A model generated the notes under the pieces. It was given only the letters and a program-made list of their open reading frames with translations. It was not told the DNA's origin and did no database searches. A stretch of 41,600 nt of DNA from a virus. A program made the position numbers and the translations under genes. The stretch spans positions 1 through 41,600 of the IMG/VR virus record IMGVR_UViG_3300027754_000191. One strand, 5' to 3'. Within the stretch, counting starts at the first letter, position 1; each line of letters begins with the position of its first letter. This document shows, one piece after another, positions 3,980-41,591 of the stretch.

Positions 3980-5077
3980 ATGAGCGTTTTTGACGTCGCA
4001 AACCGGTCGGATCATACCAAAAGTTTGGCATTCTTGGATCCCAACGGGGGTGTCAGCATCCAGCGCTATGATACTATGAAATACAAGACGCTGGACAAGC
4101 TCACAGAAAAGCAGCTGTCGTTTTTCTGGTTGCCTACTGAAGTTGACATCTTCAAAGATGCTAAGGACTTCAAAGATCTCACTGCGCATGAACAGCATAT
4201 ATTCACAAGCAACCTCAAGCGCCAGATACTGCTAGACAGCGTCCAAGGTCGTGCACCTAGCGTGGCATTTGGGCCAATCTGCAGCTTGCCCGAGCTAGAG
4301 AACTGGATCACTACTTGGACGTTTAGCGAGACCATCCATAGCCGTAGCTATACTCACATCATTCGTAATGTTTACAGCAATCCAGGCAAGATCTTTGACG
4401 AGCTGATGGACATTGCTGAGATCGTAGACTGTGCTGGTGATATCAGCCAGTACTATGACGAGCTGATCGACATGAACACTAAACTGGCAATCGGCGCTAA
4501 CGATTACGATGCATATCGTCACAAGCAGTTGATCTGGCTGTGCATGATGAGCGTGAACATCCTCGAAGGTGTGCGCTTTTATGTGAGCTTTGCCTGCAGC
4601 TGGGCATTTGCCGAAGTCAAGAAGATGGAAGGCAATGCTAAGATCATCAAGTTTATCGCCCGCGATGAAAACTTGCACTTGGCCAGCACACAGACGCTGT
4701 TGAAGATACTGCCCAAGGATGACCCGGACTACGCCAAGATTGAGATCGAATGCCAAGCCGAAGCTATTAAGATGTTTGAAGATGCAGTAGATCAAGAAAA
4801 GCGTTGGGCAGAATACTTGTTCAAAGATGGCAGCATGATCGGTCTTAACAATCAGCTGTTGGCCGAATACGTTGAATGGATCGCTGCCAAGCGCATGACT
4901 GCTGTTGGGCTACCAACCAAATACAAAGGTGGTTCAAATCCTCTGCCGTGGACACAAAAATGGATTGCTGGTGGAGAAGTTCAAGTGGCCCCGCAAGAAA
5001 CAGAGATCAGTAGCTATGTTAGCGGTGGCACCAAACAAGATGTTGGCACGGACAGCTTCAAAGGGTTCAGTCTCTGA
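3980..5077 (+). CDS. nrdB: Class Ia ribonucleotide reductase, small (radical) subunit
   Basis: The 365-aa protein houses the di-iron tyrosyl radical that starts catalysis in NrdA. Ligands can be placed: D86 (LLDSVQGR), E117 and H120 (FSETIHSRSY), the radical tyrosine Y124, a Glu in ILEGVRFYVSF, and Glu and His in RDENLHLAS. The SETIHSRSYTHIIRN block matches the proteobacterial NrdB family closely. Length is normal (E. coli 376). The start has GAGGAAG 6 nt upstream. The stop codon overlaps the next start as TGATG, suggesting coupled translation with the glycosyltransferase. Confidence 0.97.
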   Translation: MSVFDVANRSDHTKSLAFLDPNGGVSIQRYDTMKYKTLDKLTEKQLSFFWLPTEVDIFKDAKDFKDLTAHEQHIFTSNLKRQILLDSVQGRAPSVAFGPICSLPELENWITTWTFSETIHSRSYTHIIRNVYSNPGKIFDELMDIAEIVDCAGDISQYYDELIDMNTKLAIGANDYDAYRHKQLIWLCMMSVNILEGVRFYVSFACSWAFAEVKKMEGNAKIIKFIARDENLHLASTQTLLKILPKDDPDYAKIEIECQAEAIKMFEDAVDQEKRWAEYLFKDGSMIGLNNQLLAEYVEWIAAKRMTAVGLPTKYKGGSNPLPWTQKWIAGGEVQVAPQETEISSYVSGGTKQDVGTDSFKGFSL

Positions 5078-5769
5078 TGAAAGTAGCTATCGTTACACCG
5101 TATCACACGGAATCTGCTGCAGTGCTGCATAGGTGTAACGATAGCGTTCTAGCTCAGACCTATACCAACGTGCGACATTTCATGGTTGGCGATGGCATTA
5201 CTAATCCATTGGTATCTACATTCGATGCAGACAGTTATGGTCTACCACATGCTCATGCTGATGCTGGTGCAACCCCTCGAGCGATAGGGGCACTTAGTGC
5301 ATTCAGCCAAGGGTATGATGCTGTTGGGTTCATAGATGCTGACAACTATCTCAAGCCCAATCATGTAGAGCACATGGTTGCAGTGCTGCAAAAAAGTGGA
5401 GCCGATGGAATAGTAGCCACGCGAGTGATACACAGTCAAGATGACCGTGAGATGTACGTTGACCGTATTGAAAGCAACGGTGAGAACATGATTGATACCA
5501 ACAGCTGGTTTCTCACTCGCAATGCCATGCACCTGATGTCACATTGGATCACTACTCCTGGTCAGCAGCTGTGGAGCGATAGGCATTTTGCCAAAGCTGT
5601 GCTGGATAGCGGTATGAGGCTGGTACGTTGTGATGAACCAACTGTGGTGTACGTGACACGCTGGGCATGGCATTATCAATATGCAGGATGGGCAGTACCA
5701 GATGATGCAGTATGGATACATACTGCAGCAGATGGCACGTTATCACATGTTAAAAATGCCAATAAATAA
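5077..5769 (+). CDS. Family 2-type glycosyltransferase
   Basis: This 230-aa protein has the GT-A nucleotide-sugar fold signature: VAIVTPYHTES at the N terminus, the NDSVLAQTYTNVRHFMVGDG strand-helix-strand, and the DxD metal site D87-A-D89 within GFIDADNY. A donor UDP- or GDP-sugar is therefore likely; the acceptor cannot be told and could be DNA, a virion protein or host glycan. The W-rich C terminus (RWAWHYQYAGW) may shape the acceptor site. The gene is wedged between nrdB (1-nt overlap) and glutaredoxin, an unusual place unless it is co-expressed with nucleotide metabolism, for example to sugar-modify DNA. No membrane segment is seen, so the enzyme should be cytoplasmic. Confidence 0.8.
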   Translation: MKVAIVTPYHTESAAVLHRCNDSVLAQTYTNVRHFMVGDGITNPLVSTFDADSYGLPHAHADAGATPRAIGALSAFSQGYDAVGFIDADNYLKPNHVEHMVAVLQKSGADGIVATRVIHSQDDREMYVDRIESNGENMIDTNSWFLTRNAMHLMSHWITTPGQQLWSDRHFAKAVLDSGMRLVRCDEPTVVYVTRWAWHYQYAGWAVPDDAVWIHTAADGTLSHVKNANK

Positions 5770-13681: not shown

Positions 13682-14374
13682 ATGGCTGTGACACGTGCTA
13701 TTAACACAACTACTACCGATGATCAAAGTTTGCGCGAATACATGATCGGTGTTTACAATAACATGGGGATTGGCTTGTTACTGAGTGGCATTGTTAGCTA
13801 CATCATAGGTACTGACCCCACCCTCGTTGCCATGTTCCTTGGCGGACCACAAGCATGGCTTTTTATACTTGCGCCGCTTGCCATGGTATTTGTCATGTCA
13901 TTTATGATTGACAAAATGTCTGTGACTGTTGCAAGATTTATGTTCTATGCATACGCCGCTGTTATGGGTATTAGTTTGTCCAGCATCTTTATAGTATATC
14001 AGTTGGGCAGTGTTATTCAAGTTTTTATGATCACTGCTATCATGTTTTTATCAATGAGCATATATGGATACACAACCAAACGCGATCTTACGTCGCTGGG
14101 TGGATTTTTTCTTATGGGTCTGTTCGGCTTAATTGCAGCTAGTATTTTAAATATATTCATGCAAAACTCTGCATTGGATTTTGCAATTTCCATCGTAGGT
14201 GTGGTGATTTTTGTTGGGTTAACTGCGTATGATACACAACAGATTAAAGATATTTTCTATAAAACGCACGGCGATGATAGGTCAAAGGCTGGTATCATGG
14301 GTGCACTGTCCTTGTATTTAGACTTTGTAAACCTTTTGCTGAATTTGCTGAAGTTAGTAGGCGCTAAAAAGTAA
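13682..14374 (+). CDS. Bax inhibitor-1/YccA family membrane protein
   Basis: The 230-aa protein has about seven membrane segments from residue 28 to the C terminus and the signatures of the BI-1 (YbhL/YccA) family: GYTTKRDLTSLGGFFLMGLFGLI, VGLTAYDTQQIK and the terminal GALSLYLDFVNLLLNLLKLVG. It should reside in the inner membrane. In bacteria YccA binds the FtsH-HflKC protease and slows degradation of membrane proteins; other family members act as pH-sensitive calcium leaks. A phage copy could protect phage proteins from FtsH or tune lysis timing, which is inference. AAAGGAGAG precedes the ATG and a strong terminator follows. Codons look more AT-rich than in the adjacent topoisomerase genes, hinting at separate acquisition. 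Confidence 0.93.
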   Translation: MAVTRAINTTTTDDQSLREYMIGVYNNMGIGLLLSGIVSYIIGTDPTLVAMFLGGPQAWLFILAPLAMVFVMSFMIDKMSVTVARFMFYAYAAVMGISLSSIFIVYQLGSVIQVFMITAIMFLSMSIYGYTTKRDLTSLGGFFLMGLFGLIAASILNIFMQNSALDFAISIVGVVIFVGLTAYDTQQIKDIFYKTHGDDRSKAGIMGALSLYLDFVNLLLNLLKLVGAKK

Positions 14375-16159: not shown

Positions 16160-16587
16160 CTGTGAAAGAAGTATCTGTCCACGCACTGCGTGATGATTTA
16201 ATGGTCCAACAACAGGTGCACACCCGCTGGCAGCACATGGTTGGTGTGATCATGTTAAACCAAACAGGTCGCAAGCCTGTTAAGACTGTACTACCAGAAT
16301 TCTTGAGCAGGTGGCCAAACGAAGAGTCGTATCTTTACAGCACGCCAGATGAAGTGATACCTGTGATACGTCCACTTGGTTTCTACAATCGCAGAGAGAA
16401 TACCCTACGCAAGATGAGTTGCGATTTCCTAAGCTGGGATTTTAAAGATGCAACCAAGCTGTATGGTATAGGCCAGTATGGCAGTGAAAGCTATCGGATC
16501 TTTTGGCTAGGTGAACGGTTTGAACCGCAAGACAAGGAACTGCGGCGATACCTTGGTTATCCACAATTAGAGAAAGCTACTGCATGA
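16156..16587 (+). CDS. MBD4-like mismatch-specific DNA glycosylase
   Basis: The 143-aa protein reads as the catalytic domain of MBD4 in the HhH-GPD (endonuclease III) superfamily: VIMLNQTGRKPVKTVLPEFL, VIRPLGFYNRRENTLRKMS, then YGIGQYGSESYRIFWLG, matching the MBD4 hairpin region HGIGKYGNDSYRIF, and PQDKELRRYL with D126 at the place of the catalytic aspartate of human MBD4. There are no C-terminal Fe-S cysteines, as in MBD4 and unlike Nth or MutY. MBD4 removes T or U opposite G, the product of cytosine or 5-methylcytosine deamination. The likely role is repair or editing of phage DNA, or removal of unusual bases. The gene sits in a four-gene overlapping run. Confidence 0.85.
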   Translation: MTVKEVSVHALRDDLMVQQQVHTRWQHMVGVIMLNQTGRKPVKTVLPEFLSRWPNEESYLYSTPDEVIPVIRPLGFYNRRENTLRKMSCDFLSWDFKDATKLYGIGQYGSESYRIFWLGERFEPQDKELRRYLGYPQLEKATA

Positions 16588-17345
16588 GCACATTGATATT
16601 TGGCCGAGGGTTTGTTGGAAAAGCCACTGCTGGTATACTGAACTGTGATATTGCATGGTACGATCCAGCCCAGGGTTACGATCAAGTAGACCTGCGGGCC
16701 GTTGATCGCGCAATCATCTGTGTACCCACACCCGATCACAAAGATGGGTTGGATCATTCTGCAGTGTACGAGTGCTTAAACTATCTTGCCAGCAGAGGTT
16801 GGGCAGGACCTGTGGCAGTACGCAGCACTTCTATGCCTGCTGCATTTGATAGCATGCTGTCTATAAATGCCAATTTGGTATACTGGCCAGAATTCTTGCG
16901 TGAGGCACGTGCAGCAGCAGATGCAGCTAACCCAACGCAGGTAGTGCTAGGAGGGTCTAATGAGATCGTGCATCAATGGCGCATATGGTTGTGTGGCATG
17001 CAACATGCACAGTCGGCCTGCTGGACGCTCACAGATATCAAGACGGCTGCAATGATCAAGATTGGCATCAACTCTGCTCTAGCTGCCAAAGTCATGTTGT
17101 TTAACAGCTTGTATCAAGCATGTCAAACCACTGGTGCCGATTGGGCAAGCGTGCGAGCAGGAGTTGGATTAGATCCGAGGATAGCCACCGGGCAGACCAT
17201 GGTACCTGGACCGGATGGGTACCTTGGGTTTGGAGGTAAGTGCTTGCCCAAGGATATTGGCGCACTAGCTGCCATGCTGCCAGATGATCAGTTACTGCAA
17301 GGCATTATTGCTCAGAACGCTGCGGTACGAAATGGCATAAATTAG
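16584..17345 (+). CDS. Short UDP-glucose/GDP-mannose dehydrogenase-like enzyme
   Basis: The 253-aa protein has the N-terminal NAD site LIFGRGFVGKATA, the VPTP strand (AIICVPTPDHKDG), the helix-turn E in WPEFLREA and the catalytic loop GFGGKCLPKDI with C220 and K222-D223, all typical of UDP-glucose or GDP-mannose 6-dehydrogenases. It ends shortly after that loop, so the usual C-terminal sugar-nucleotide binding domain of about 120-150 residues is missing. It may be a minimal oxidase for a nucleotide sugar or a related hydroxy substrate. Start and stop overlap neighbours closely. Confidence 0.8.
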   Translation: MSTLIFGRGFVGKATAGILNCDIAWYDPAQGYDQVDLRAVDRAIICVPTPDHKDGLDHSAVYECLNYLASRGWAGPVAVRSTSMPAAFDSMLSINANLVYWPEFLREARAAADAANPTQVVLGGSNEIVHQWRIWLCGMQHAQSACWTLTDIKTAAMIKIGINSALAAKVMLFNSLYQACQTTGADWASVRAGVGLDPRIATGQTMVPGPDGYLGFGGKCLPKDIGALAAMLPDDQLLQGIIAQNAAVRNGIN

Positions 17346-17348
17346 TAT

Positions 17349-17798
17349 ATGAGATATGATGAAGTGATCAATGGTGCTAGCAAAGCACTGATTTGGAGCA
17401 GGTTAACTGATACGTTCCTGTTCATCTTGCGCAGTGAACTCTGCAGCCATCCGTTGCAGTGGGACGTGGCCGGCGGCCATGTAGATGCAGGCGAGAACTA
17501 TAAGCAGGCATTGTACAGGGAAATTGTTGAAGAGATTGGACGAGATCTCAGCGATGCTCCGATCAGATTGCTCAGCGAGACTACAACAGAACAACCGCAC
17601 TTTGTCATGCGCAACTATGTGGTATGTGTACCAGAAGAATTTGAACCCAAGCTCAACTGGGAGCATGTTGAGTTCCAGTGGAAGAGCCTGGAAGAGATGC
17701 CAGAACCAGTAACGTTCAACATAGACATGTTGCTCAGCAACGACCGCGCTGCTGTGCGACTCAAAGAATTCCAAGAGCGTTGCAGAAAAGCTGGATAA
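17349..17798 (+). CDS. Nudix hydrolase (first of two)
   Basis: The 149-aa protein carries a complete Nudix box at G43-G64 (GHVDAGENYKQALYREIVEEIG), matching Gx5Ex7REUxEExGU, so it should bind Mg and cut a nucleoside diphosphate linked to another group. Its substrate could be a sugar nucleotide, fitting the dehydrogenase just upstream, or a damaged dNTP. The stop overlaps the radical SAM start (TAATG). Confidence 0.88.
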   Translation: MRYDEVINGASKALIWSRLTDTFLFILRSELCSHPLQWDVAGGHVDAGENYKQALYREIVEEIGRDLSDAPIRLLSETTTEQPHFVMRNYVVCVPEEFEPKLNWEHVEFQWKSLEEMPEPVTFNIDMLLSNDRAAVRLKEFQERCRKAG

Positions 17799-18976
17799 TG
17801 CCAAACGTAAATCATTTCTGTATGGCCCCATTCACGAGTTTATCATATACCTCGTGGAGCAATAATGTAAAACCTTGTTGCCAATGGCCCGATTTCAGAG
17901 ATGGCAATGCGCCTAGTTGGGATCTTGGTATAGTAGATACATACCCAGATCCGTTGAATCATCCAAACATGGAAGCATTAAGGCAAACTATGCTGTCTGG
18001 TAAATCGCATCCAGGGTGTTCAAGATGTGACTATAAATCTTCTCTTGGTATAAACAGTGCCAGAGATAACAGCAACCAGCTGTTCCACAATCACAACACT
18101 GCTACGGCTCTGTTACGCTCAATTGAATTGAACCTTGGTAATCTCTGCAATATGAAATGCCGCATGTGCAATAGCGGTAATAGTAGCAGATGGATAGAAG
18201 ATGAAATTGTCTTAAAAGGCAAAAGTCATCGCAAGCTAATGCGCCGCAGCATTGATGACTTTACAATGGACATGAGCCATGTAGAATTTTTAAGATTTGT
18301 TGGCGGCGAACCGCTATTAGAACAAAAAACCATAATAGCAGTATTAAATAAGATACAACGCGATCGCGGATCATTAAAAGATTTAGACTTGGCTATAACA
18401 ACTAACGCCAGCGTTGCAATAGAAGATGCACTTCTAAGTTTGATTTCTGATTGTAGGGCTTTCTTATTAGATGCAAGTATAGATGGCATAGGTGCTGTCA
18501 ACGATTATCAGCGCACAGGTGCACACTGGCCCGACATAGAGAAAAACCTGCGTACATGGCATGATCTCAAGGACACATGGCCTATGCCTTATATCTGTGT
18601 AGCAAGTTGCTGGACACTGTTAAACGTGCATCATTTTCCTGAATTTATTAGATGGGTTACATCAAATATACCAAAGTATTCTATCATTGGACAGATAGTA
18701 ATTGATCGACCGCAGCTTGCACCGAGAAATCTGCCATACACAGTCAAGCAAGATCTCATATCACAGATATCTAATATGACCGGATACAACACTACTGGAT
18801 TAGAGCAAAAACAAGAAATCACAGAACTTACCAAATTGATATTAAATGAATTACACACCCCTGCTGATCTTGACCTTGAATCTGTAAAAGATATTATTGC
18901 GCAACTAGACACGCTGCGTAATGAAAGCTTTGCTGATATAGAACCTAATATACACAACGCTATATTCTCAAATTGA
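17798..18976 (+). CDS. Radical SAM protein with N-terminal cysteine (twitch-like) segment
   Basis: The 392-aa protein has the canonical cluster motif C117-N-M-K-C121-R-M-C124, followed by FVGGEPLLE, the radical SAM GGE motif. Before it lie FCMAPFTSLSY, NVKPCCQWP and GCSRCDYKS (C8, C27, C28, C74, C77), which could hold a second Fe-S site; this arrangement fits twitch-domain radical SAM proteins that I recall from phage genomes. It should cleave SAM to make a 5'-deoxyadenosyl radical for an unknown modification. ATG 17798 is chosen for the overlap with the Nudix stop. Local base use is more AT-rich than in the genes before it. Its Fe-S clusters might depend on SufE-fed assembly. Confidence 0.85.
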   Translation: MPNVNHFCMAPFTSLSYTSWSNNVKPCCQWPDFRDGNAPSWDLGIVDTYPDPLNHPNMEALRQTMLSGKSHPGCSRCDYKSSLGINSARDNSNQLFHNHNTATALLRSIELNLGNLCNMKCRMCNSGNSSRWIEDEIVLKGKSHRKLMRRSIDDFTMDMSHVEFLRFVGGEPLLEQKTIIAVLNKIQRDRGSLKDLDLAITTNASVAIEDALLSLISDCRAFLLDASIDGIGAVNDYQRTGAHWPDIEKNLRTWHDLKDTWPMPYICVASCWTLLNVHHFPEFIRWVTSNIPKYSIIGQIVIDRPQLAPRNLPYTVKQDLISQISNMTGYNTTGLEQKQEITELTKLILNELHTPADLDLESVKDIIAQLDTLRNESFADIEPNIHNAIFSN

Positions 18977-37608: not shown

Positions 37609-38637
37609 ATGCAGATTAGAGAACTCTTAGAAGGTGGTTGGGACACGACTGTGACACAGGGCACAGTGATCAAGCCTGCCACAGTAAAGATCACGCTGGC
37701 CAAGGTACAGCAGTTTGTCACAGATTTCAACAGATGGCTTAGCGCTACTAACCAAGGTCCGGTGGCGCTGGGCAGACCCACTGGGTCGGGCACCTATCAT
37801 GAGATAGACAGCAAAGAGCATCCCGACAAGGTCTACGGCGACATCGACCTGCAGATGATTGCCCCAGATGTGCAGGGTACTAGCTACGGTCAATACACCA
37901 CACATTGGAACAGGCTAGCTGACGAATTCGTCAAAAGCAACACGCCAAACTATATACACACAGGTGAAAGCAAGCCAGGGCATCCAATATTTCAGATTGG
38001 CCCCGATCAGTATGTACAAGTAGACTTCATGTGGCACCCACCGCATCTCAAGGATTGGGGTGCTGCTCGCGTCACTCCGGAGCGCGGCATCAAGGGATTG
38101 CTTACTGGTAACATGTACAGCGTGCTGGGAGAGCTGCTAGACATGAGCATACAGCATGCAGGTGTGCAGCTCAAGACCATAGATGGCAAGCATGTGCCGT
38201 TCAGCAAGCAAAAAGGCGCTGTGGTAAAGACCATCAGCACTGATCCAAGATCGTTTATATACGACATCTTCATGAACGAGTACCAACAGATCACAGGGCA
38301 AGAGCCTGGCACTGCCAAGGTTGACCAGCTGCTAGATAGGTTCAGAGGCAACGACCCAAGCGATGTCAAGATCAGCAAGCTGATCAATGCTGTGAAAGGT
38401 TTAGCACGTAGCTTTCAGATCAACGGTATGTATGGCAAGCAGGACCTTGCAGGCTTTGGCGATGCACACGACTTCTTGAATAAGTTCATGCAACGTTATG
38501 AAGAAAAGGCCATGACAGACGTCAACGCTAAGAAGCGCGACAAAGCTGAGACACCAGAAGCCAAGGCTCGTGCAGAAGCTGATCGTCAGAAAGTGCTTAG
38601 CGGTCTGGATACTGTAAAGGGCTTGTTCAATCTATGA
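37609..38637 (+). CDS. Nucleotidyltransferase-fold-like protein
   Basis: The 342-aa protein shows GRPTGSGTYHEID, then VYGDIDLQM (D78, D80) and YVQVDFMWHP, the G-S and three-Asp spacing of the polymerase-beta nucleotidyltransferase fold. It would move a nucleotide to a protein, RNA or small molecule, but the GS motif is atypical. The C-terminal 90 residues are helical and charged (DVNAKKRDKAETPEAKARAEA). It overlaps the plcP start in ATGA, placing it in the same operon. Assigned from motif only. Confidence 0.55.
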   Translation: MQIRELLEGGWDTTVTQGTVIKPATVKITLAKVQQFVTDFNRWLSATNQGPVALGRPTGSGTYHEIDSKEHPDKVYGDIDLQMIAPDVQGTSYGQYTTHWNRLADEFVKSNTPNYIHTGESKPGHPIFQIGPDQYVQVDFMWHPPHLKDWGAARVTPERGIKGLLTGNMYSVLGELLDMSIQHAGVQLKTIDGKHVPFSKQKGAVVKTISTDPRSFIYDIFMNEYQQITGQEPGTAKVDQLLDRFRGNDPSDVKISKLINAVKGLARSFQINGMYGKQDLAGFGDAHDFLNKFMQRYEEKAMTDVNAKKRDKAETPEAKARAEADRQKVLSGLDTVKGLFNL

Positions 38638-39377
38638 TACGTTATCGCAGCGTTTGGATATCAGATGTGCATCTAGGTACCAGGATGAGCAATGCAGCCG
38701 CACTGCTGGAGTTCTTCAAGACTTTTGAGACAGATAAACTGTTTCTAGTTGGCGATATCATTGATGGTTGGGCATTAAGCAAAAGTTTTTATTGGCCACA
38801 AGCACACAATGATGTGATACAGAAGATACTACGGCAAGCCCGCAAAGGCACTGCAGTGACCTACCTGCCTGGAAACCACGACGAGTTTCTGCGCAACTTT
38901 GGTGACCACATATTTGGCAACGTCAGATTGATCGACAGTTGCATATATCACGCAGCCGACGGTAAGTGCTACAAGGTCATACATGGCGACCAGTTCGACG
39001 TAGTGATCAAACATGCCAAATGGCTGGCACATCTAGGCAGCTGGGCATATGACATGCTGATTGCACTTAACGTGACGGTTGGCAGCGTGCGTCGGATGCT
39101 GAAACTTGAACCGTGGAGCCTCAGCGCTTGGGCCAAGTACAAGGTCAAACAGGCTGTGAACTTTATCGGAAACTACGAAGAGAACCTCAGCGGTTATGCC
39201 AAAGCACACGGCTGTGACGGTATCATATGTGGGCACATACATCACCCTAACATCAGAGACATAGACGGAATTGTCTACATGAACTGCGGTGATTTTTGTG
39301 AAAGCTGCACTGCATTGGTTGAACACGAAGACGGACGCTGGGAGATCATTAGATGGCCACTAAACTCTGTATCGTAA
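38634..39377 (+). CDS. plcP: PlcP-type (LpxH-like) calcineurin metallophosphoesterase
   Basis: The 247-aa protein has the complete metal site of calcineurin phosphoesterases: D11-x-H13 (SDVHLG), D40 (LVGDIIDGW), N80-H81-D82 (PGNHDEF), H116 (IHGDQFD) and H200/H202 (CGHIHHP). The central WSLSAWAKYKVKQAVNFIGNYEE and final YMNCGDFCESCTALVEH are typical of the alphaproteobacterial branch often annotated as UDP-2,3-diacylglucosamine hydrolase, which contains PlcP, the phospholipase C that turns membrane phospholipids into diacylglycerol under phosphate limitation. Overlap by 25 nt with a GT4 glycosyltransferase, as in bacterial plcP-agt loci, favours PlcP over lipid A synthesis. No signal peptide; it acts at the inner membrane's cytoplasmic face. 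Confidence 0.82.
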   Translation: MIRYRSVWISDVHLGTRMSNAAALLEFFKTFETDKLFLVGDIIDGWALSKSFYWPQAHNDVIQKILRQARKGTAVTYLPGNHDEFLRNFGDHIFGNVRLIDSCIYHAADGKCYKVIHGDQFDVVIKHAKWLAHLGSWAYDMLIALNVTVGSVRRMLKLEPWSLSAWAKYKVKQAVNFIGNYEENLSGYAKAHGCDGIICGHIHHPNIRDIDGIVYMNCGDFCESCTALVEHEDGRWEIIRWPLNSVS

Positions 39378-40348
39378 CTGATGCTTGGCTACCACAAATA
39401 AACGGTGTAGTTACAACACTGACCAACTTGGTACGAGAAGCCGAAGCTGCTGGCTGGGAAGTGTTGGTCATACATCCAGGGTTGTTCCCCAATCGTCCTG
39501 CGCCTGGATATCCAGAAGTGCAGATATGTTGGCCATGGGGTGTTCGCAAGATGGTTCGCAAGTTTAACCCCGATCATCTGCACATAGCCACTGAAGGACC
39601 ACTGGGACTGATGGCACGCATCAGCTTTCGCCGCTGGGTACTGACCACTGCTTATCACACGCAATGGGCACCAATCTTCAAGCGCATGTTTGGATTGCCC
39701 GAGCAACTGACCTGGGGCTTTATGCGTTGGTTCCACGATCACGGCAAGGTCATGGTGCCTACACCCAGCATACAGCGCGAACTGATAGACCAGGGTGTCA
39801 AAGCAGAAGTTGTGCTGTTTAGCAGAGGTGTTAACCTGGACAAATTGACTCCTACTGTAGAGCATACAACAAATCTACGACCGCGCATACTAAGCGTTAG
39901 CAGAGTCAGCGTAGAAAAGAATCTAGAAGCATTTTGTCAGTTAGATGCTGATAGATATGATCTAGTATTGGTAGGCGACGGTCCGCATCTAGCATCGCTA
40001 CGAGCCCAGTATCCACGAGTACACTACACAGGTATGCTGCACGGATCAGAGCTAGCAAATGAGTATGTTCGTGCAGACTGTATGGTGTTCACCAGCCGTA
40101 GCGATACCTTTGGGCTAGTGATAATTGAATCACAGTGCATGGGAACACCTGTTGCTGCGTATCCAGTCAAGGGACCAATAGACGTGATATTACCAGAGAC
40201 TGGTTGCATGCGCGACGATATTGATGCTGCTATCACTGCTGCACTACAGCTGGACAGGGAAGTCTGCCAACGTATTGCTAGGGCCAAGTTTAGTTGGTTA
40301 CATGCTTGGCTACAGTTCAAAGACAATCTAGTTTCACACGACAGCTGA
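39353..40348 (+). CDS. GT4-family glycosyltransferase (Agt-like, partner of PlcP)
   Basis: The 331-aa GT-B protein has KLCIVTDAWLPQINGVVTTL at the N terminus, the ITEGPLG-like HIATEGPLGLMARI, TAYHTQW, VPTPSIQRELI and the C-terminal donor site with DTFGLVIIESQCMGTPV (E-x7-E type). This is the GT4 group that includes lipid glycosyltransferases next to plcP in alphaproteobacteria, which glycosylate diacylglycerol to make glycolipids that replace phospholipids. Start has GGGAG 8 nt upstream within plcP; the 25-nt overlap points to coupled translation. Sugar donor not readable. Slightly short at the C terminus for the family. Confidence 0.8.
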   Translation: MATKLCIVTDAWLPQINGVVTTLTNLVREAEAAGWEVLVIHPGLFPNRPAPGYPEVQICWPWGVRKMVRKFNPDHLHIATEGPLGLMARISFRRWVLTTAYHTQWAPIFKRMFGLPEQLTWGFMRWFHDHGKVMVPTPSIQRELIDQGVKAEVVLFSRGVNLDKLTPTVEHTTNLRPRILSVSRVSVEKNLEAFCQLDADRYDLVLVGDGPHLASLRAQYPRVHYTGMLHGSELANEYVRADCMVFTSRSDTFGLVIIESQCMGTPVAAYPVKGPIDVILPETGCMRDDIDAAITAALQLDREVCQRIARAKFSWLHAWLQFKDNLVSHDS

Positions 40349-40355
40349 TCGTAAC

Positions 40356-41591
40356 ATGGCCGTCTACATACTGTATCATAATGTTAGATCTGATAATATC
40401 CCACAATGGAATTATATACCTGACCCGCAGCAACTAACTAATTGGTCAGCTGATCCGGCACAGTTTGATATGAAGTTCATAGAAAACATGCCTAACACTG
40501 CTGTTGCGTATGCTAGGATAGAAGACGTTCCGGTAGGCAGCAATTGGTTGTATCCCCTGCACAATCTATACAACAATTCAGTTTATACTCGCTCAGATCT
40601 GAAGATATTTGATCATTTCATGTCTGTGCCTAGGCTTTGGGATGATCTCTTAGCCGGATGTGGTAGGATACTCTATGATGTTAGCCGTGAGGGATTTTTA
40701 TTCCCAAATTTCGTACTTGGGCAAGTAGAAGGATTTTTTAAACAGAACGGCATACCATTAGACCGGGTTGTGTTTGGAACTAGTGCTGCTAATGCTGGTG
40801 AGATATTTCTACAAAACGGCTACACTATGCAGTCATTATCGTTTCAGCAACTTGAATTGGAATCAAGTTGGTGGTCGCAACACTTGCCAACTGTACCACT
40901 GCATCGTACCATAGATAAACGATTCTTATGCTTTAACCGATTGTACAAATATCGGCTGCACCGACTGCAACTACTAGCCAAGCTGCACCGTAGAGATCTG
41001 TTGGGACAGTTCTACTACAGCATGTTGGACGGCGTTGACGACATCGACATAGTTGCAGCTGCAGCGCAGTTAGTAGGTACAGAGCCAGCTAGCTATGATA
41101 CCATTAGTGCAATGAGAGAACTCAAACCCAGAATGCCAATGCTGTTGGATACTGATGATTTGAAAACCAATCTGGCCTGGGAACACACTGATACTGTAGA
41201 ATCATATTACCGTCGCACGGGTATCAGCATAGTAACAGAAACCTTGTTCCACGATGGTGAGATATTGGTGAGCGAGAAGACCTGGCATCCCGTGCGCATG
41301 CAGCAGCCATTCATCGTGCTGAATGGCCCCGGCGCATTACAGCATCTCAGAGATCTCGGCTACAAGACGTTTGGCCAATGGTGGGACGAAGGCTATGACA
41401 CGATTGCAGATCCGTATGACCGTTTGGATGCTGTCGAACAGCTGATAGCAGATATCGCCAGTTGGTCCGACACTAAGTTTGCACAGTTCGTAGCAGAGTC
41501 TGCAGCAGTGTGCCAGCACAATCTGATCCACTTGCAGTCGGCACACACCCGCATAAGCTACGACAGCAAATTAAAGGCATTGTTCATATAA
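40356..41591 (+). CDS. Glycosyltransferase-like phage protein, 411 aa
   Basis: The protein begins VYILYHNVRSDNIPQWNYIP. The central part is basic (KRFLCFNRLYKYRLHRLQLL), and the C terminus has ISIVTETLFHDGEILVSEKTWHPVRMQQPFIVLNGPGAL and LGYKTFGQWWDEGYD, which recalls exostosin- or fucosyltransferase-type donor sites (SEK-W-P motif) in phage glycosyltransferases. The gene follows the GT4 gene by 7 nt in the same orientation, so a shared role in glycan or glycolipid synthesis is possible. The stop lies 9 nt before the window's end. Confidence 0.65.
   Translation: MAVYILYHNVRSDNIPQWNYIPDPQQLTNWSADPAQFDMKFIENMPNTAVAYARIEDVPVGSNWLYPLHNLYNNSVYTRSDLKIFDHFMSVPRLWDDLLAGCGRILYDVSREGFLFPNFVLGQVEGFFKQNGIPLDRVVFGTSAANAGEIFLQNGYTMQSLSFQQLELESSWWSQHLPTVPLHRTIDKRFLCFNRLYKYRLHRLQLLAKLHRRDLLGQFYYSMLDGVDDIDIVAAAAQLVGTEPASYDTISAMRELKPRMPMLLDTDDLKTNLAWEHTDTVESYYRRTGISIVTETLFHDGEILVSEKTWHPVRMQQPFIVLNGPGALQHLRDLGYKTFGQWWDEGYDTIADPYDRLDAVEQLIADIASWSDTKFAQFVAESAAVCQHNLIHLQSAHTRISYDSKLKALFI

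Follow-up and report, generated by a model that had tools for sequence, protein, structure and literature searches.

Whether a phage can carry its own pathway for converting the phospholipids of its host into glycolipids is the question raised by two overlapping genes on a 41.6-kb viral fragment from IMG/VR, which derives from a T4-like phage (hereafter the window, i.e., the whole stretch of 41,600 nucleotides that was analyzed). The first gene, plcP (38634 to 39377, plus strand), codes for a 247-aa calcineurin-like metallophosphoesterase assigned to the PlcP clade, and the second, agt (39353 to 40348, plus strand), for a 331-aa family 4 glycosyltransferase (GT4) assigned to the Agt/GTcp group of diacylglycerol glycosyltransferases. 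The ATG of agt at 39353 sits within plcP, which ends at 39377, and the two reading frames have 25 bp in common (39353 to 39377, plus strand), as expected from the original prediction of a plcP gene overlapping a GT4 gene. With agt directly 3' of plcP on the same strand, the layout is that of an operon. The spacing of -25 recurs in one relative (L016), and most other relatives have short overlaps or gaps. Upstream, a gene for a 342-aa protein of unknown function (37609 to 38637, plus strand) overlaps plcP by 4 bp. Because of the 4-bp and 25-bp overlaps, these three genes look to be cotranscribed. The 342-aa product is 83 to 86% identical in the two nearest phages and its synteny is kept, yet there is no evidence for its membership in a lipid module.

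Judging from gene content and synteny, the pair is phage borne and not bacterial contamination. This assignment rests on the presence in the window of genes for T4-type topoisomerase II subunits, phage NrdA and NrdB, and baseplate/tail-lysozyme-like matches, together with the conserved context in the nearest relative, a 216-kb contig (L015) with the T4 capsid gp23 and portal genes. On that contig, the order kinase, two small genes, 342-aa gene, plcP, and glycosyltransferase is kept at 57 to 86% identity to the window, and its hallmark phage genes bear out the earlier claim that a phage carries the pair. At the DNA level, no match of the window to phage records was found, and the only match in the window to the T4 late promoter TATAAATA lies away from plcP and agt.

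The product of the first gene is, by its sequence features, a PlcP-type metallophosphoesterase, for which Mn2+-dependent hydrolysis of phosphatidylglycerol and phosphatidylethanolamine to diacylglycerol may be inferred. It matches the Metallophos domain of Pfam (PF00149, 2.4e-11), retains the complete set of metal ligands (D, H, D, N, H, H, and H), and has all of the conserved family residues (D11, H13, D41, N81, H82, H117, H201, and H203), which are invariant when it is aligned with bacterial PlcP. It is 54 to 56% identical to PlcP of Pelagibacteraceae and 51% identical to a Pseudomonas aeruginosa protein (L008), which the PlcP side of the tree takes in. The layout around the latter gene (plcP, a glycosyltransferase directly downstream, and then adenylate cyclase) leads us to infer that it corresponds to PA3219-PA3218, the proven PlcP-Agt1 locus of P. 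aeruginosa (PMC8528852).

Homologues of this protein are named LpxH (UDP-2,3-diacylglucosamine diphosphatase) in public records, its best sequence match in the PDB is a weak one to LpxH (8.9e-05), and the two enzymes have the calcineurin-like fold family and the metal-ligand pattern in common. The database annotations would thus suggest a lipid A enzyme accompanied by a glycosyltransferase that modifies lipopolysaccharide, a reading to which we give next to no credence. The window protein scores far below the curated cutoffs of the LpxH models (41.1 bits against 134 and 30.4 bits against 190.35), and it has the motif GNHDE, unlike LpxH of Escherichia coli and of the other gammaproteobacteria compared, which have GNRDF. 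When viral and bacterial homologues are placed in trees together with LpxH sequences, LpxH is separate from the PlcP side (SH-aLRT of 99 in a quick tree), with support of 100/100 for the LpxH clade in a more careful tree with fewer rows. The partner gene, moreover, is of the Agt type and not a lipopolysaccharide glycosyltransferase. Placement within the LpxH clade would have refuted the PlcP assignment of the original prediction; an approximately unbiased (AU) test rejected such nesting of the window protein (p-AU 0.000133), and LpxH membership was excluded on the basis of scores, motif, separate clade, and this test. A further AU test, grouping the window protein with all LpxH sequences, did not reject that arrangement (p 0.199), but it only shifts the root and is no test of LpxH membership. 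As this shift of the root onto the window branch is compatible with the data, the order of branches inside PlcP is poorly resolved and remains open. In the quick tree the window protein falls in a virus-only group of 25 rows (support 99), and in the careful tree, with fewer rows, its only supported grouping is the pair with L015. A single origin for all viral plcP genes is neither shown nor rejected (p-AU 0.262).

The second gene product is, on comparable grounds, a GT4 enzyme of the Agt/GTcp group, with synthesis of MGlc-DAG or GlcA-DAG as the inferred activity; this placement among the diacylglycerol glycosyltransferases agrees with the Agt-type partner originally proposed. It matches Glyco_transf_4 (4e-18) and Glyco_trans_1_4 (1e-16) of Pfam. 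We compared 14 residues of the SAR11 enzyme GTcp that had been probed through mutation or docking (PMC8231724), and 13 are identical in the window protein (G16, G82, G85, H104, R163, R190, K195, D256, T257, F258, G259, E264, and W320 in GTcp numbering), the sole change being T162 to Ser. The catalytic dyad H104-D256 of GTcp has its counterparts in H102 and D251 of the window protein, and both R163 and W320, which belong to the proposed diacylglycerol site (PMC8231724), are kept. Most of the 14 positions are invariant across the aligned viral homologues. The window protein also has the GTcp-type Asp where MshA-type GT4 enzymes have Glu, a distinction that the GTcp authors made for their enzyme (PMC8231724), and its first motif reads SRVSVEKN versus GRVAXEKN. 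Viral and bacterial glycosyltransferases are largely apart in the tree. Relative to the two nearest relatives, dN/dS is about 0.05 to 0.08 for plcP and 0.09 to 0.13 for the glycosyltransferase gene. These low ratios indicate purifying selection and hence maintenance of both proteins, an estimate to be taken with caution, as dS is near saturation.

The original prediction allowed for a cassette reaching to the window end, through a next gene that seemed to code for another glycosyltransferase, and this part of it found no support. The gene in question (40356 to 41591, plus strand; 411 aa) matches no family of Pfam, NCBIfam, or PHROG. A structure prediction of low quality (pLDDT 51.5) gave GT-B glycosyltransferases as the best structural matches, at weak E-values (9e-4 and worse), and assignment of the product to GT-B-like proteins has weak support at best. 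It is absent downstream of agt in the five nearest agt loci read, and a relative with 68% identity (L209) has no plcP within the 9.2 kb examined. Extension of the cassette into this gene was rejected on these counts; as the gene is absent beside agt in relatives, the cassette ends with agt, and we leave the third gene outside the cassette count. Its product has a conserved C-terminal pattern, TET...SEKTWHP...LGY.TF..WWDE, common to distant phage proteins (L209 to L213 and L018), and it may possibly represent an undescribed phage glycosyltransferase family.

Relatives of PlcP are encoded by at least 560 viral stretches of IMG/VR among the matches listed. For viral clusters at 85% identity, counted only where at least 1.3 kb of downstream sequence was available (n = 57), a glycosyltransferase of the Agt group adjoins plcP in 26, the corresponding figure for bacterial clusters being 30 of 43. 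A search with the glycosyltransferase alone fetched 10 viral loci of about six distinct lineages, and plcP lies directly upstream in 10/10. The pairing is not due to chance, given the 26/57 clusters and the paired state of every locus from the glycosyltransferase-only search. Further, the pair is found with T4 capsid or portal genes on the same contig in L015, L030, L036, L070, L110, and L114. The remaining 31 of the 57 viral clusters lack an adjacent glycosyltransferase of the Agt group, and on several large plcP contigs (e.g., those of L040, L049, L058, and L084) agt was not detected anywhere, from which it follows that the partnership of plcP and agt is not obligatory. In some clusters without an adjacent Agt-type enzyme, the next gene codes for a family 2 glycosyltransferase (L112). 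The many phages that have plcP without agt would fit a role of PlcP in lysis or membrane reshaping, in which, late in infection, the host membrane would be weakened or bent by diacylglycerol, a non-bilayer lipid, and Agt would merely adjust the lipid composition. This possibility, which we regard as very improbable, does not account for the repeated occurrence of plcP with agt and with pstS, and the neighborhoods read gave no sign of an association with genes for holins or lysis. A divergent PlcP relative is common to a human-gut phage record (L003) and a Parabacteroides plasmid (L013), in both of which it is followed by an overlapping gene; the products of these overlapping genes look alike, and the plasmid copy is annotated as a glycosyltransferase.

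Taken together, we consider it probable that plcP and agt form a working lipid-renovation module of the phage, with activity, substrates, expression during infection, and benefit all being inferences. In such a module, the metal-dependent PlcP would cleave host glycerophospholipids, e.g., phosphatidylglycerol and phosphatidylethanolamine, to diacylglycerol and a phosphorylated head group, and Agt would transfer glucose or glucuronic acid from the UDP-sugar to the diacylglycerol. The membrane would thereby keep its bulk and lose phosphorus, without a buildup of diacylglycerol. In water poor in phosphate, the benefit would most likely be a supply of phosphorus from which to replicate the genome, and an altered envelope would inevitably come along with it. 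As the product of PlcP is a phosphorylated head group and not free phosphate, recovery of phosphate needs a further phosphatase or a reuse step. A gene for a UDP-glucose dehydrogenase-like protein (16584 to 17345; phrog_9148, PF00984, and part of PF03721), 21 kb from the pair and seemingly without the beginning of its NAD-binding domain, could supply UDP-glucuronic acid, the second sugar donor of Agt, for an acidic glycolipid. The two reactions, formation of diacylglycerol from phospholipids by PlcP and its glycosylation by Agt, are established for the bacterial relatives (PMC8528852, PMC4796936, PMC8231724, and PMC9239053), and bacteria in which such a pathway is proven have the same gene pair. 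For the phage copies of PlcP and Agt, neither enzyme nor lipid data are available, and proof is lacking as to whether the pair serves phosphate gain, envelope alteration, or both.

Evidence for the phosphate reading comes from other members of the family. In L116, plcP-agt is immediately preceded by a pstS-like gene (PF12849), and in L076 it is immediately followed by one. The phage-like contig L112 has, downstream of its phage-type nrdA and nrdB, four consecutive genes (L112:3486-7620) whose products are a PstS-like protein, a phosphate-selective porin, PlcP, and a glycosyltransferase of family 2. A gene for a phosphate ABC transporter is oriented divergently from plcP in Mosig, a cultured phage of Pelagibacter, and in Pelagibacteraceae genomes pstS is found about 2 kb further on from plcP-agt. 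Such pstS genes occur on only 6 of 30 plcP contigs, and the pstS-flanked contigs, which are fragments, have no capsid, portal, or terminase matches; they are taken as viral on the strength of the IMG/VR call and of the flanking phage-type genes. Cooccurrence with phoH (17/30) was set aside, as this gene is common in T4-like phages. Exact Pho-box-like sites were recovered upstream of viral plcP in 3/58 cases versus 5/1284 background segments (p = 0.004), all three being from one clade and situated 50 to 62 bp upstream of the gene. Upstream regions of bacterial plcP are strongly enriched in such sites (16/45 versus 12/956 in the background, at up to one mismatch). A search of the window for Pho boxes, proposed along with the original prediction, gave nothing beyond chance (3 near-matches in total versus 6.8 expected) and none at the locus. 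The phosphate reading thus has support in some members of the family, and it extends to the window phage by analogy only, because of the absence of a Pho box there. We do not claim PhoB regulation of the window pair; the membership of the two enzymes in their families, inferred from sequence, stands without it.

The lack of a Pho box, along with the fact that no pst gene was seen in the window, leaves room for the same enzymes to serve envelope remodeling and not phosphorus supply, by altering surface charge or receptor display, blocking superinfection, or protecting against cationic peptides. Precedents exist in the glycolipids of P. aeruginosa, reported as protective against polymyxin B from tests with P. 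aeruginosa mutants and with E. coli expressing Agt1 or Agt2 (PMC8528852), and in the aminolipids of Ruegeria, which are reported to entail a trade-off with phage attachment (PMC9938194). The window also codes for a family 2 glycosyltransferase besides the UDP-glucose dehydrogenase-like protein. Against this stand the pstS and phosphate-porin neighbors in other phages, which favor phosphate. We regard the envelope as a rather unlikely sole purpose and as the main rival of phosphate gain; the two purposes are not exclusive and both can hold.

Phosphorus limits phage production in many waters, and the known phage genes related to it act in uptake (pstS) or have unclear roles (phoH). The window pair resembles the phosphate-related auxiliary genes of cyanophages and pelagiphages (pstS, phoA, and phoH) in being phage borne and tied to host phosphorus use, and pstS adjoins plcP in some relatives, but plcP-agt is predicted to act on membrane lipids and not on phosphate uptake. 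With a lipid-remodeling pair, phosphorus would become accessible from the host membrane, and the surface of the infected cell would be changed as well. The PlcP-Agt pathway is well known in bacteria, and what appears to be new here is its presence in phages; no report of a phage-encoded version was found among the open-access papers searched, with most subscription papers and preprints being outside this scope. With the bacterial systems (PA3219-PA3218 of P. aeruginosa, plcP-agt/GTcp of SAR11 HTCC7211, and plcP-agt of Methylosinus), the window pair has families, order, and catalytic residues in common, and its identity to bacterial copies with the pair is about 51 to 60% for plcP and 36 to 43% for the glycosyltransferase. 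It differs from them in residing in a T4-like phage, lacking a Pho box, having overlapping genes, and having a merely inferred activity, and the viral copies form their own subclades.

A PlcP-clade protein with 49% identity is encoded by the cultured Pelagibacter phage Mosig EXVC030M (Mosig_00120), adjoining the phosphate transporter gene. Unlike the window gene, it has no agt neighbor, and it is annotated as a UDP-2,3-diacylglucosamine hydrolase, a lipid A enzyme; no published role for it was found. Viral surveys list lpxH among viral auxiliary genes as a lipopolysaccharide gene (PMC10653327 and PMC9611531). As no viral copy that we examined falls among the LpxH sequences, these survey-listed genes may be PlcP too, and a likely misreading of viral plcP as lpxH, including the cultured pelagiphage copy, would be corrected. 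The evidence seems to us evenly balanced on the broader proposal that T4-like phages, as a widespread class, rebuild the host membrane from phospholipids to glycolipids and mine it as a phosphorus store, and that viral PlcP, usually filed as LpxH, has gone unnoticed in environmental phages as an auxiliary gene for phosphorus. Phosphate genomic islands of the marine HIMB59 contain genes annotated as LpxH and RfaG (PMC10734472), which are probably PlcP and Agt.

Elsewhere in the window, the family 2 glycosyltransferase gene (5077 to 5769) directly follows nrdB, a membrane protein with a strong match to the Bax1-I family (2.3e-56) is encoded at 13682 to 14374, and a radical SAM protein (phrog_14086) is encoded at 17678 to 18976.
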